Assembly: GCA_028278525.1 (NCBI GenBank)
Contig: JANQEE010000009.1
Coordinates: 1 to 64,000, forward strand
Direction of reading: 5' to 3'
Origin: Minwuiaceae bacterium
Lineage (GTDB): Bacteria; Pseudomonadota; Alphaproteobacteria; Minwuiales; Minwuiaceae
Length of the DNA stretch: 64,000 bases
Part shown: positions 56,729-63,409 of the stretch, one piece after another
Position numbering within the stretch: the stretch's first letter is position 1
How the letters are laid out: each line of letters starts with the position of its first letter
Notes under the pieces: model-generated
Told to the model about the DNA's origin: nothing
What the model saw: only the letters and a program-made list of their open reading frames with translations
The model's database searches: none
Program-made: the position numbers and the translations under genes

Positions 56729-57880
56729 ATGGCGATCCACTTCGAAGCATCCGAACTGGCCGACCGTCGGGCCCGGGCCTCAGCCGAGATGGCGCGACGC
56801 GGGCTGGACGGCATGCTGCTGTTCCGCCAGGAAAGCATGTTCTACCTGACCGGCTACGACACCTTCGGCTACGTCTTCTTCCAGTGCCTGTACATGGGCG
56901 CCGACGGCACGATGGTGCTGCTGACCCGCGCGCCGGACCTCCGCCAGGCGCAACATACGTCGGTCATAGAGGACATCCGCATCTGGACCGACCGGCACGG
57001 CGCCAACCCGGCCGAGCAGTTGCGCGACATCCTGGACGGTCAGGGCTGCCGCGGAAAAAGGCTCGGCGTCGAGTTCGAAGCCTACGGGCTCACCGCCCGG
57101 TCCGGCCGGATGCTGGAGGCGGCGCTGGACGGCTTCTGCACGCTGGAAGACGAATCCAACCTGGTCAGCGAACTCCGCCTGATCAAAAGCCCGGCCGAGA
57201 TCGCCTATGTCCGCCGCGCCGGCGAACTGGCCGACGCCGCCTGGGACGCAGCGGTGCGGCTGGCCAAACCCGGCGCGTTCGAGGGCGACATCCTGGCCGC
57301 GATGCAGGGCGCGGTGTTCGCCGGCGGCGGCGACTATCCGGGCAACGAGTTCATCATCGGCTCCGGCAACGACGCCCTGCTCTGCCGCTATTTCACCGGG
57401 CGCCGCCACCTGGACGCAGAGGACCAGCTCACCCTGGAATTCGCCGGCGCCTACCGCCACTACCACGCCTGCCTGATGCGGACGATCCCGGTCGGCGGCG
57501 CGAGCGCCCGGCAGCGGGCAATGCACGAAGCCTGCCGCGACGCGCTGACCGCCTGCGAGGAAAGCTTAAAGCCCGGCCAGCCCATGGGCGCGGTGTTCGA
57601 CGCTCACGCCCGGGTGCTGGACGAGCACGGTTTCCAAGAGCACCGGATGAACGCCTGCGGTTACTCGCTCGGCACCACCTTCGCGCCGAACTGGATGGAC
57701 TGGCCGATGTTCTATACCGGCAACCCGGTGACGGCGGCGCCGGACATGGTGTTCTTCCTGCACATGATCCTGTTCGACTCCGACGCCGGCGAGGCGATGA
57801 CCTTGGGCCGCACGGTGCGGGTCACCGAGACCGGGTGCGAGCCGCTGTCGACCGCGTCGCTGGACCTGGTCATCGGCTGA
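56729..57880 (+). CDS. M24 family (creatinase/Xaa-Pro peptidase fold) enzyme
   Basis: A 383-residue pita-bread-fold enzyme. The creatinase N-terminal domain spans about 10-145 and the catalytic domain 155-383. Typical parts are ELRLIKSPAEIAYVRRAGEL and EHRMNACGYSLGTTF. The metal ligands of true aminopeptidases seem replaced: LTLEFAGAYRHYHACLMRT has E and A/C where D and D occur in LDVGA...HSDLTRT. This resembles creatinase or ectoine hydrolase (DoeA). The aminotransferase downstream suggests catabolism of a small nitrogen compound. Its last 32 codons recur twice downstream. Confidence 0.87.
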   Translation: MAIHFEASELADRRARASAEMARRGLDGMLLFRQESMFYLTGYDTFGYVFFQCLYMGADGTMVLLTRAPDLRQAQHTSVIEDIRIWTDRHGANPAEQLRDILDGQGCRGKRLGVEFEAYGLTARSGRMLEAALDGFCTLEDESNLVSELRLIKSPAEIAYVRRAGELADAAWDAAVRLAKPGAFEGDILAAMQGAVFAGGGDYPGNEFIIGSGNDALLCRYFTGRRHLDAEDQLTLEFAGAYRHYHACLMRTIPVGGASARQRAMHEACRDALTACEESLKPGQPMGAVFDAHARVLDEHGFQEHRMNACGYSLGTTFAPNWMDWPMFYTGNPVTAAPDMVFFLHMILFDSDAGEAMTLGRTVRVTETGCEPLSTASLDLVIG

Positions 57881-59185: not shown

Positions 59186-59367
59186 AGACGCCGGCGAGGC
59201 GGCGACGCTCGGACGGATGGTGCTGGTGACGGAGACCGGGTGCGAGCCGTTGTCGACCGCGTCGCTGGATCTGGTCATCGGCTGACGGTGGCGCCAGCGT
59301 ACCCTATGTCGTGATCTTCGCGGTCGTCCTTCTGCTCGGCATGGTGGCAAGCTGCATTTTGATGTGA
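59186..59367 (+). pseudogene. Second copy of M24 tail plus small ORF
   Basis: 59186-59284 encodes DAGEAATLGRMVLVTETGCE and PLSTASLDLVIG then TGA, the last 32 residues of the M24 enzyme with three changes. The small hydrophobic ORF follows (59299-59367), same length as the first copy, but its ATG has become GTA; a GTG at 59311 could start 18 residues. The rest of the M24 gene is missing, so this is a duplication remnant abutting the aminotransferase stop. Confidence 0.85.
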
Positions 59368-59425
59368 GCCACTGGGATCGAATTCCGTCGTGGTTCGAAC
59401 GCTTTGCACAGCAACTTGATAACAG

Positions 59426-60184
59426 TCAACTGGGATCCGGACCATCGTAATCTGGCGGAGGGTCTACAGACCGCCAGCGTGATCCAATTTCATCACAAGA
59501 GTCTTGGATATGCTTGCGCTTGCGGGAAAACGTCCCGTGCGGCAAATGCGACCGCTCACCAAAAACGTCGATACCGAGGCAGATAGACGTGTCCGCCTCA
59601 CCGATTGATTCGAGGTGCGTTAGACAGAACTCATATGCTAGGCCAGCAACGGTCTTGCAGCGTTCCACACGTTGTCTCCCCGAACCTTCTCCGCGAGAGA
59701 AAACAAGTATCGCCCCACCAATGGAATCTGGTTCGTCACGATTACGTTTCCTTGTCAAAACGTCGAGGGAAACGCTCACTTTGGTCGGCCCAAACACCAG
59801 AGCTGGCTGCCGACCATGAATCTTTTCGCACAACACCGATGCCAAACCGAGACGATTGTACGAGCGCTGGAATCTGTCAATGGCCTCGATAGAAAATCGA
59901 CAGTCCGTCTTGACCCAATCGGTCGCGCCTGGCCGCGACTCTCTCTTTGATAGGTGATCAATAGCACTTGCTATGTGATTGAGACTCCGGCTTCCATCAG
60001 TCAGAAAATTCACCAGACACTCCCGGGCCTTGTTATATCGAGCTACAGCCGAAGTCCTAGGAAACCGTGCCTCTCGAATTATGCTCTTGCGCCGAGATGC
60101 AGTTGCAGCCAAATATTCGGCCATCTGATTCGCGGAAAGCTGCGGGTTTGCCCTGTAGCCGTAATTGGTTTTGGAGCCCACCAT
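59426..60184 (-). CDS. Hypothetical protein of accessory island
   Basis: A 252-residue soluble, basic protein, not recognised. It has an Arg-rich segment (AATASRRKSIIREARFPRTS) and helical stretches (YNKARECLVNFLTDGSRSLN), with a strand-rich C-terminal half (GRQPALVFGPTKVSVSLDVL). I chose ATG 60184, with AGGAAGAG upstream on the minus strand; ATG 60124 (MAEYLAATAS) is the other choice. Codon use is less GC-rich than neighbours, suggesting transfer. The start codon overlaps that of the divergent ORF. Confidence 0.65.
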   Translation of the reverse strand: MVGSKTNYGYRANPQLSANQMAEYLAATASRRKSIIREARFPRTSAVARYNKARECLVNFLTDGSRSLNHIASAIDHLSKRESRPGATDWVKTDCRFSIEAIDRFQRSYNRLGLASVLCEKIHGRQPALVFGPTKVSVSLDVLTRKRNRDEPDSIGGAILVFSRGEGSGRQRVERCKTVAGLAYEFCLTHLESIGEADTSICLGIDVFGERSHLPHGTFSRKRKHIQDSCDEIGSRWRSVDPPPDYDGPDPS

Positions 60185-60431
60185 GGACGATCTCTTCCTA
60201 TCAGCGCGAATCGACAGCACACGCTCTATTTGTATATCACCCTTACCACGCAAAACATACAAAGAAACCGGAACGCGAGGACTAGGCGGCGAGTACGGCT
60301 ATTTTATTTACGAAGTAGATTCATCACGGCCGGGCACTAGCCTCGAAGTAATTGGGAAGGCCGCATCCATAGAGGCGGCCATTCGCATTTTCGAGATCGT
60401 GTCACGCTCCGCCGAGCCGAATGAGGCCTGA
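60183..60431 (+). CDS. Small hypothetical protein, divergent partner
   Basis: An 82-residue protein from the ATG at 60183 (GGAG 7 bp upstream). The C-terminal half looks like a compact alpha/beta unit (GEYGYFIYEVDSSRPGTSLE, ASIEAAIRIFEIVSRSAEP). No family is recognised. Its start codon shares the palindrome CCATGG with the divergent gene, so each ribosome site lies inside the other gene's coding sequence. The base composition is lower in GC than the core genome. Confidence 0.55.
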   Translation: MDDLFLSARIDSTRSICISPLPRKTYKETGTRGLGGEYGYFIYEVDSSRPGTSLEVIGKAASIEAAIRIFEIVSRSAEPNEA

Positions 60432-60802: not shown

Positions 60803-61780
60803 ATGTCAGGGTTCCGAAAAAGAACAGTGCACGAGATCGCAGAGATGATCTGTGGAACCGAGAGCAAGCACTTCAAGTACAGAAGCAGTTCCTATCTGTC
60901 GGAATTCTTCGAAGATTGTGACATGGAGCAATATGTGCACGACGGCTCCACCCGTAAGTGGTGGGTATCTAGCGTTCTCGAAGAGATCCTGGCGCAGCCT
61001 GCTGATGACTCTGCGTTGCCCAGTTTAGGTTTCCAGACGGTAATACAGGTCCTGATGGACATAGCCGACAGCACAGAGACAGACCCGGACCGGAAAGCAG
61101 CACTCACAGAGTTAAACGCAAGCCTTAGTCGGGAAGGACTCCAGGCATTCTACGCCAACGACAACCGCTGCTACATCCGGAACACAAAGACGGGCGACAT
61201 CGGCCGCCCCGGCCCCGTGGTGGATCGGGCTTTGTCGAAAGATGAGGTCGAGCGACGCGCTCGGCTCACTGCTTTCATAGACGGCGCCAGCGAGGACGAA
61301 CTGACAGAGAAGGTGATTTTGCCGCTGCTCCAAGCTTTGCGATTCCAGCGCATCTCCATCGCCGGGCACAAAGACAAGGCGATGGAGTTTGGCAAAGATT
61401 TGTGGATGAAGTATCGGCTGCCCACGCGACACTGGCTTTACTTTGGGCTACAGGTAAAGCGTGGAAAAATCGATGCGTCCGCCCGCTCTAAGAACGAGAA
61501 CATCGCCGAGGTTCACAATCAGATTACGATGATGCTTGGTCACGAAATTTTCGACCCTGACATCAACAAGAAGTCCCTGGTTGACCACGCGATTATCGTA
61601 GCCGGGGGCGAAATAACAAAGCAGGCAAGGCACTGGCTGGGCGAACGGCTAAACGCGTCGCAAAGGAGCCAAATCTTATTCATGGACCGGGACGAAATTC
61701 TTCACTTGTTCGTCGTCCACAACGTTCCGATGCCGGACGAAGAGCGTACTGAGGAATTCGAAGATGACATTCCATTCTAA
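60803..61780 (+). CDS. Putative defence nuclease: AbiJ-like N-terminus with Mrr-type PD-(D/E)XK domain
   Basis: A 325-residue protein. Residues 1-65 (EIAEMICGTESKHFKYRSSS, YLSEFFEDCDMEQYVHDGST) resemble, as I recall, an AbiJ N-terminal domain of abortive-infection proteins. Residues 165-300 look like an Mrr-type restriction nuclease: helix ELTEKVILPLLQALRF, then D199 in EFGKDLW, then Q217-V-K219 in YFGLQVKRGK, the QxK form of the PD-(D/E)XK site. A HEPN gene follows about 20-70 bp downstream. The start is the ATG at 60803; 60767 is possible, and neither has a clear ribosome site. The lower GC suggests acquisition. Confidence 0.7.
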   Translation: MSGFRKRTVHEIAEMICGTESKHFKYRSSSYLSEFFEDCDMEQYVHDGSTRKWWVSSVLEEILAQPADDSALPSLGFQTVIQVLMDIADSTETDPDRKAALTELNASLSREGLQAFYANDNRCYIRNTKTGDIGRPGPVVDRALSKDEVERRARLTAFIDGASEDELTEKVILPLLQALRFQRISIAGHKDKAMEFGKDLWMKYRLPTRHWLYFGLQVKRGKIDASARSKNENIAEVHNQITMMLGHEIFDPDINKKSLVDHAIIVAGGEITKQARHWLGERLNASQRSQILFMDRDEILHLFVVHNVPMPDEERTEEFEDDIPF

Positions 61781-61848
61781 TTTAGGGTCAACGAGGTGCA
61801 ATCGACACTGAGCGTTGGAGAAAGGAAGTTCTGTCGCGCCTAGATGAC

Positions 61849-62526
61849 TTGGAGCATCGGGCTCGACAGTGTCAACAATATTTAAATGCAAATCACCTTG
61901 AATCACTCGAGAGAAAGTCAGACTTCGAAGATGCTTGGCAACGAATAAAAGAACTTATTCCTGAAGACCTCTCTCCGAATAGGGCAGGTGATCTGGAAAG
62001 ACACTTGCACTTTGCGATGCCGCATGACTTCTCGGATATTGAGCTTCATGACATTCCCGCTGTTCGGGAGTCGATCTTGCGCTATGGACAAAGAGGCGAA
62101 ACATTCATTGAAGACCAGCTTGATCATCTCAAGCTCAATTCTACGGTCTCGGACGCGTTGCACCCATTGATCAAAGACGGATGCGTCGCGTTCGTCCGAG
62201 AGCGGCAGTACCGACAGGCCGCTCTTGCGGCCGTAGGTATCGTAATGGACGAACTGCGGCGTTTATCGAGTTCCCAAGGCGACGGAGATAGCCTGATTCG
62301 CAATGTCGTAGGTGTCCGGCCAGGAAAACTCGCTTTCAGCGATTGCACCGATGACAACGCCAAAAATGTGACCGAAGGACTCAAGATGATCGCACAAGGT
62401 CTGTACAAGGGCGTGCGTAACCCAGCTTCACACGGATGGGATCGTTTCGGAAAACAAGAGGTAGTCCAAGTGATGATCACCAGCAGCTTGTTGCTGAGTC
62501 GGCTTCAAATTGTGGCAAAAAGATAG
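61849..62526 (+). CDS. TIGR02391-like HEPN-domain protein (Ymh family)
   Basis: A protein of at least 225 residues. The C-terminal half matches the TIGR02391/Hypoth_Ymh type, with LIRNVVGVRPGKLAFSDCTD and NVTEGLKMIAQGLYKGVRNP. R190 and H195 in RNPASH form the HEPN RNase motif Rx4H. The N-terminal half is helical and charged. The listed start is a TTG, but coding sequence clearly continues upstream (TERWRKEVLSRLDDLEHRAR) to an ATC at 61801 with GAGG at 61793-61796. It is expected to act with the upstream nuclease. Confidence 0.75.
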   Translation: MEHRARQCQQYLNANHLESLERKSDFEDAWQRIKELIPEDLSPNRAGDLERHLHFAMPHDFSDIELHDIPAVRESILRYGQRGETFIEDQLDHLKLNSTVSDALHPLIKDGCVAFVRERQYRQAALAAVGIVMDELRRLSSSQGDGDSLIRNVVGVRPGKLAFSDCTDDNAKNVTEGLKMIAQGLYKGVRNPASHGWDRFGKQEVVQVMITSSLLLSRLQIVAKR

Positions 62527-62566
62527 CGATCACAAGGACTTTCGGATTACGGTGACTGTGCACTAA

Positions 62567-62683
62567 ATTCGCCCGCTAGGCGATGCAGCTTTTGCGAAAA
62601 CGCTCGAGCGCCAAACCCGCGGCGTCCTCCGACCCGCCAAGCGCGGGCCGAAGCCGAAACAGGCACGGAAGCCGGAAAGGTGA
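62567..62683 (+). pseudogene. C-terminal remnant resembling a REP-associated tyrosine transposase
   Basis: A 38-codon frame after a TAA ends RPLGDAAFAKTLERQTRGVL and RPAKRGPKPKQARKPER. The pattern 'RPLG..AF...LE...G..LRP...GPKPK' is the usual end of REP-associated (Y1) tyrosine transposases as I remember them. Nothing of the catalytic HUH domain precedes it. The sequence AATGGGGTCAGAGCCAATTG at 63047-63066 is also of a kind seen near such elements. Confidence 0.45.
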
Positions 62684-62765
62684 GTGCGAGACTTTCGGTT
62701 AAATGCTCTGTCACCGTAACTCCAGATTTTCAAGACTTGGCGCCATGGCCAGCAGCCAAAAAAAT

Positions 62766-63207: not shown

Positions 63208-63322
63208 ACGAGGGCGGTGCGGGTGATAGAGGATGGGTGCGAGCCGTTGTCGACGGCGTCGCTGGATCTGGTGATCGGCTGAGGGAGGGGTCGGCATGGT
63301 GGCGAGCTGTATTTTGATGTGA
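63208..63322 (+). pseudogene. Third copy of M24 tail plus shortened small ORF
   Basis: The frame encodes VRVIEDGCEPLSTASLDLVI then G and TGA (ending 63282), matching the M24 C-terminus. The following small ORF has lost 42 bp relative to copy 1, exactly the distance between its two CGGCATG repeats (57890 and 57932), leaving MVASCILM (63296-63322). It marks the right edge of the accessory island. Confidence 0.8.
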
Positions 63323-63409
63323 GCCGCCGGGGAAGAGGCTCTTTTGCGTACAACATAACGATTTTCGATGCCCCTGGGCCGCCGGACAAAATCCGCAGGC
63401 TGGTGGCAT

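Follow-up and report, generated by a model that had tools for sequence, protein, structure and literature searches.

Fusions of the AbiJ-NTD1 domain to a range of effectors were described by Anantharaman et al. 2013 (PMC3710099), who list AbiJ, Ymh and DUF4145 HEPN domains, kinase, restriction endonuclease (REase) and deoxyribosyltransferase domains as its partners and argue that such N-terminal domains handle an infection signal. Among these fusions, the combination with an MRR-type REase is an in silico prediction (PMC3710099, Table 2). Mrr and MspJI are described as having a PD-QxK site (PMC12707154), HEPN proteins are found in toxin-antitoxin systems (PMC3710099), and PD-lambda-3, which has a Ymh HEPN component, is described as abortive (PMC13190303). 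DefensePredictor comprises 13 PD-(D/E)XK systems (PMC13092281). In the main texts searched, we found no experimental report on the AbiJ-NTD1-REase family.

Here, we analyze two adjacent genes, ORF1 and ORF2, in a stretch of 64,000 nucleotides from a Minwuiaceae bacterium (contig JANQEE010000009.1; hereafter, the window). We suggest, with a probability of roughly 0.6, that ORF1 by itself constitutes a mobile anti-phage effector that acts as an infection-triggered DNase and that ORF2 is functionally separate and not a required partner. A preliminary description had read the two genes as a toxin pair; its domain assignments for both proteins held up, while the two-gene pair did not.

Domain architecture of ORF1

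ORF1 encodes a protein with two predicted domains:

60803 to 61780, plus strand: ORF1, 325 aa, AbiJ-NTD1-like N-terminal domain and predicted PD-QxK nuclease domain, family without a name
60803 to 61186, plus strand: N-terminal domain of ORF1, residues 1-128, AbiJ-NTD1-like
61223 to 61777, plus strand: C-terminal domain of ORF1 with a predicted nuclease fold, residues 141-325
61397 to 61459, plus strand: predicted catalytic motif D199 (61397-61399), Q217 (61451-61453) and K219 (61457-61459)

D199, Q217 and K219 do not vary among the 13 (alignment A1) and 17 (alignment A2) aligned relatives; E169 is likewise fixed in A2 and almost fixed in A1. The mean column identity of the family is 67% in both alignments. 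The invariance of the three residues across relatives argues that the motif is not due to chance. D199-x17-QxK together with E169 fits the PD-QxK site described for Mrr and MspJI (PMC12707154, PMC4926085), and the comparison with the closest relative, L008, shows purifying selection on ORF1 (pS 0.84, pN 0.12). The AlphaFold2 model has a pLDDT of 82 for whole ORF1 and 81 for the C-terminal part, with a low-confidence stretch at residues 187-197 directly before D199, and its helices and strands follow one another in a nuclease-like order. Most of the top Foldseek matches are nucleases of the restriction type with a PD-(D/E)XK site, i.e., MspJI (probability 1.00), FokI (0.95-0.98), EcoO109I and, lower in the list, Can2. 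Because no Foldseek match reached E<1e-3 (best E 2e-3 to 7e-3), the fold assignment is based on motif, topology and structural matches taken together, and we predict a restriction-endonuclease fold for the C-terminal domain with moderate confidence. Pfam and NCBIfam models gave zero matches to ORF1, none of the known defense models, including those of PADLOC, spans the whole protein, and a PDB sequence search with A1 as query returned only a chance match to ribosomal L35. The PD-(D/E)XK-type site with QxK proposed in the preliminary description was borne out.

The N-terminal domain has a conserved core around F24-YRSSS and YxHDGSTRxxW. Independent comparisons agree that it is AbiJ-like, as had been proposed. 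The Stk2 N-terminus is one match (E=3.6e-5); profile A3, built on this domain, picks up an AbiJ protein (L042, E=1.3e-6), the C-terminus of which is the AbiJ HEPN domain (Abi_C E=4.5e-20; AbiJ E=5e-27) and the N-terminus of which also matches Stk2; and the hhalign comparison with an AbiJ protein has a probability of 96.6 (E=4.9e-10). The domain is modular and is fused to varied effectors. In L006, it is fused to a TIR/deoxyribosyltransferase-like domain and in L083, L084 and L086, it lies upstream of a C-terminus matching the candidate defense family PDC-S32. This fusion pattern agrees with that of AbiJ-NTD1 (PMC3710099), and by analogy the N-terminal domain of ORF1 may also respond to an infection signal.

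Distribution and neighborhoods of ORF1 relatives

Full-length relatives of ORF1 with ~41-79% identity are present in alpha- and gammaproteobacteria and in Actinomycetota, where they are found on plasmids, in prophages and on chromosomes. They include 36 plasmid records covering at least 80% of the ORF1 query and 16 viral contigs; phage records contained no relative of ORF1 or of its N-terminal domain. Six of 398 genomes of the phylum have relatives, one of them by the N-terminal domain only, and the genome analyzed here has a second ORF1 paralogue with 56% identity (L007; G000:C15:343641-344624). A search of 5426 complete E. coli genomes placed relatives of the E. coli form in 191 of them; those among the matches listed are annotated as "hypothetical protein". 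In E. coli, the homologue WP_023147794.1, or a protein with a near-identical gene position, is found in a Qin-like prophage and also adjoining a type II restriction-modification (R-M) system, which shows mobility. A literature search with the accessions of ORF1 relatives returned no mention of them. What is new is a widespread family that is without a name and absent from Pfam, NCBIfam and PADLOC. The preliminary description named no system with exactly this composition; the combination of AbiJ-NTD1 and a REase had already been described in 2013 (PMC3710099).

At most of the examined loci of ORF1 relatives, defense or toxin-antitoxin genes are located within ~5 kb. The paralogue L007 directly adjoins an RT-Toprim type I-C retron-type gene (L007:1-1272, E=4.5e-170). 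Other neighbors are VapBC and a SMODS nucleotidyltransferase with an S-4TM effector (L010), LmuA/ABC-3C and PDC-S28 (L011), AbiEi/AbiEii-like genes (L009), a methyltransferase with a SNF2 helicase (L013), VapBC (L014) and a type II R-M system (L046); L012 and L019 have no obvious defense neighbor. Our impression is that defense genes are enriched around ORF1 relatives. An all-against-all comparison of the flanking ORFs of ORF1 loci identified no recurring neighbor and only closely related or non-specific pairs; judged by gene content, ORF1 relatives are stand-alone genes. Together, the predicted architecture and the neighborhoods support a defense role of ORF1 well.

ORF2 and the surrounding island

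ORF1 and ORF2 sit on a small imported DNA island with the following further features:

61801 (ATC) or 61849 (TTG) to 62526, plus strand: ORF2, Ymh (PF09509/TIGR02391) HEPN protein
62155 to 62505, plus strand: PF09509 (Hypoth_Ymh, HEPN) domain of ORF2, with RNPASH at 62416-62433
59187 to 59370, plus strand: local repeat, left copy at the island edge
63215 to 63330, plus strand: local repeat, right copy, partial
62547 to 62719, strand not given: 173-bp MITE/REP-like element with 21-nt imperfect terminal inverted repeats
59426 to 60262, minus strand: ORF3, island ORF
60183 to 60431, plus strand: further island ORF

In the GC profile of the window, the GC content is 0.48-0.57 across ~59.3-63.2 kb versus ~0.64-0.72 outside; in summary, the island has 52-56% GC and the surrounding DNA 65-70%. 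The local repeat, which is up to 184 bp long, is present at only four sites in the genome (57782, 59187, 63215 and 70221 of the contig). Thus, the low-GC island between direct repeats noted in the preliminary description is real with respect to both the GC drop and the repeats, but the copies at 57782 and 70221 argue for a local repeat family rather than a simple target duplication. One of the four copies directly follows an aminotransferase gene. The MITE/REP-like element directly follows ORF2 and has further copies in the genome (81% at G000:C33:4288-4458; partial at C54). ORF3 and the ORF at 60183-60431 matched no family. ORF3 has a single weak plasmid match (32%); with no informative relative, it was rejected as a system component. 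A scan for promoters and terminators gave no more candidates than shuffled sequences.

ORF2 matches PF09509 (E=1.6e-19; 2.0e-19 for the domain at 62155-62505) and TIGR02391 (E=2.2e-10), both past the curated cut-offs, and its RxxxxH motif is RNPASH, with the histidine at H211 when counted from ATC and H195 from TTG, in line with the TIGR02391-type protein originally proposed. Based on family membership, the HEPN domain is probably an RNase. The Ymh models cover ORF2 over the HEPN domain only, and a scan of viral contigs with ORF2 returned no match. The reading frame is open from 61786, and at 61801 the window has ATC where its nearest relative, L008, has ATG. Because ATC occupies the ancestral start position, weak translation or a start at TTG 61849 is possible; the latter would give an N-terminally shortened protein. 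We regard ORF2 as a separate HEPN cargo gene that is possibly decaying.

Proposed function and comparison with known systems

The mechanism that we propose builds on what can be read from the sequences, i.e., domains, conserved catalytic residues, stand-alone spread, mobility and neighborhood. The AbiJ-NTD1 domain would act in regulation or sensing and keep the Mrr/MspJI-like PD-QxK nuclease domain of ORF1 off. An infection cue would lift this block, and the released nuclease would cut DNA of the host and/or the phage. DNA cutting would then stop phage production, probably by abortive infection, although abortive and direct action look the same from sequence. With the E. coli homologue WP_023147794.1 residing in a Qin-like prophage, the prediction from 2013 that non-HEPN effectors are also under the control of AbiJ-NTD1 is directly testable in K-12.

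The strongest rival is direct restriction, in which ORF1 would be a modification-dependent, type IV-like enzyme that cuts modified phage DNA as Mrr and MspJI do, in a non-abortive manner. The Mrr/MspJI-kind QxK nuclease, the lack of a conserved cognate methyltransferase beside ORF1 and the R-M neighborhoods of some relatives are consistent with such an enzyme. However, the N-terminal domain is of the AbiJ-NTD1 type and not a recognized SRA or winged-helix reader, and because AbiJ-NTD1 is also present on effectors that are not DNases (HEPN, kinase, deoxyribosyltransferase-like), it is unlikely to be a reader of DNA modifications as such; we therefore consider direct restriction possible but rather unlikely. 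That ORF1 serves in housekeeping or in the upkeep of mobile elements, with no role in defense, would fit its relatives on plasmids and prophages, but is quite improbable given the patchy spread among the genomes of the phylum, the varied insertion sites, the defense neighbors and an N-terminal domain in common with AbiJ and Stk2.

Could ORF1 and ORF2 instead form one two-gene defense system, with DNase and RNase effectors sharing the AbiJ-NTD1 sensor? The genes are on the same strand, with 68 nt from the ORF1 stop to TTG and 20 nt to ATC. Moreover, Ymh HEPN domains fused to AbiJ-NTD1 are on record (PMC3710099), and many Ymh proteins have their own N-terminal domain that is weakly like AbiJ-NTD1 (A3 vs A5: probability 62, E=7e-5). 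Since the Ymh models match ORF2 only over its HEPN domain, a sensor acting in trans is conceivable. A split system of this kind in this lineage, in which ORF2 without an AbiJ-NTD1-like N-terminus would be the in-trans RNase and a single sensor would serve it and the DNase, is improbable. The evidence across loci speaks against a pair. On 35 loci with an ORF1-type gene or N-terminal domain, the Ymh profile recovered only the window's own ORF2, while it recovered Ymh at 18 of 18 control loci, some of which had been used in building the profile and more distant ones of which had not. Leaving aside the window, a locus with the N-terminal domain only and a repeat of L008, none of ~32 independent loci has a Ymh HEPN gene (a few of these have <1.5 kb of downstream sequence). 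Conversely, when the ORF1 profiles were run on the 1.5 kb around 14 other Ymh genes, they found no match. The sole other pair is in L008, a MAG locus with 79% identity in ORF1, in which the ORF2 start lies directly downstream with conserved codons. This arrangement places the origin of the pair no later than the split of the two lineages, which is in favor of a joint system, with ORF2 lost afterwards in one of them. In L008, ORF2 breaks off after ~25 codons, where one base appears to be inserted compared with the window; a stop and loss of homology follow, and ORF1 is intact. This loss argues for ORF2 as dispensable cargo. The ATC start codon of ORF2 in the window also counts against a joint system. 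Apart from L008, homologues of the two genes are not associated with each other, an outcome that the preliminary description itself had named as refuting its reading. The two-gene system, including the toxin pair of the preliminary description, is therefore not supported and is improbable; most likely, the pair is ordinary defense cargo. A toxin-antitoxin pair would be suggested by two adjacent genes of which one is HEPN-like. We reject it as highly improbable because ORF1 survives alone, almost everywhere and with a broken ORF2 in L008; in addition, neither protein has any likeness to antitoxins.

ORF2 has its HEPN domain in common with component B of PD-Lambda-3 (E=2.7e-8) and with Aga_HEPN (E=6e-5). 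It matches the PD-Lambda-3_B model over residues 117-237 only, whereas typical Ymh relatives match over the full length; accordingly, ORF2 is not a full-length B component. L064 and L067 are such typical Ymh proteins, and their N-termini are weakly like AbiJ-NTD1 (probability 62). With MspJI and Mrr, ORF1 has the PD-QxK site and the predicted nuclease fold in common, and Pfam detected no SRA-like or winged-helix modified-base reader of the MspJI/Mrr type IV or IIM kind in ORF1 or the scanned relatives. AbiJ and Stk2 have N-termini homologous to that of ORF1 but differ in the effector, which is a HEPN RNase in AbiJ and a kinase in Stk2 as opposed to a predicted PD-QxK nuclease in ORF1. Accordingly, Abi_C (PF14355, the AbiJ HEPN) was found neither in ORF1 nor in the scanned relatives, and only the N-terminus of Stk2, not its protein kinase domain, is found in ORF1. 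Also among the closest counterparts are the AbiJ-NTD1-REase fusions (PMC3710099; example gi 358072046), to which we liken ORF1 by described architecture. In these fusions, an AbiJ-NTD1 of ~140 aa precedes a REase-fold domain; ORF1 likewise has an AbiJ-NTD1-like domain at the N-terminus, assigned by profile links, followed by a predicted REase-fold domain with D...QxK.
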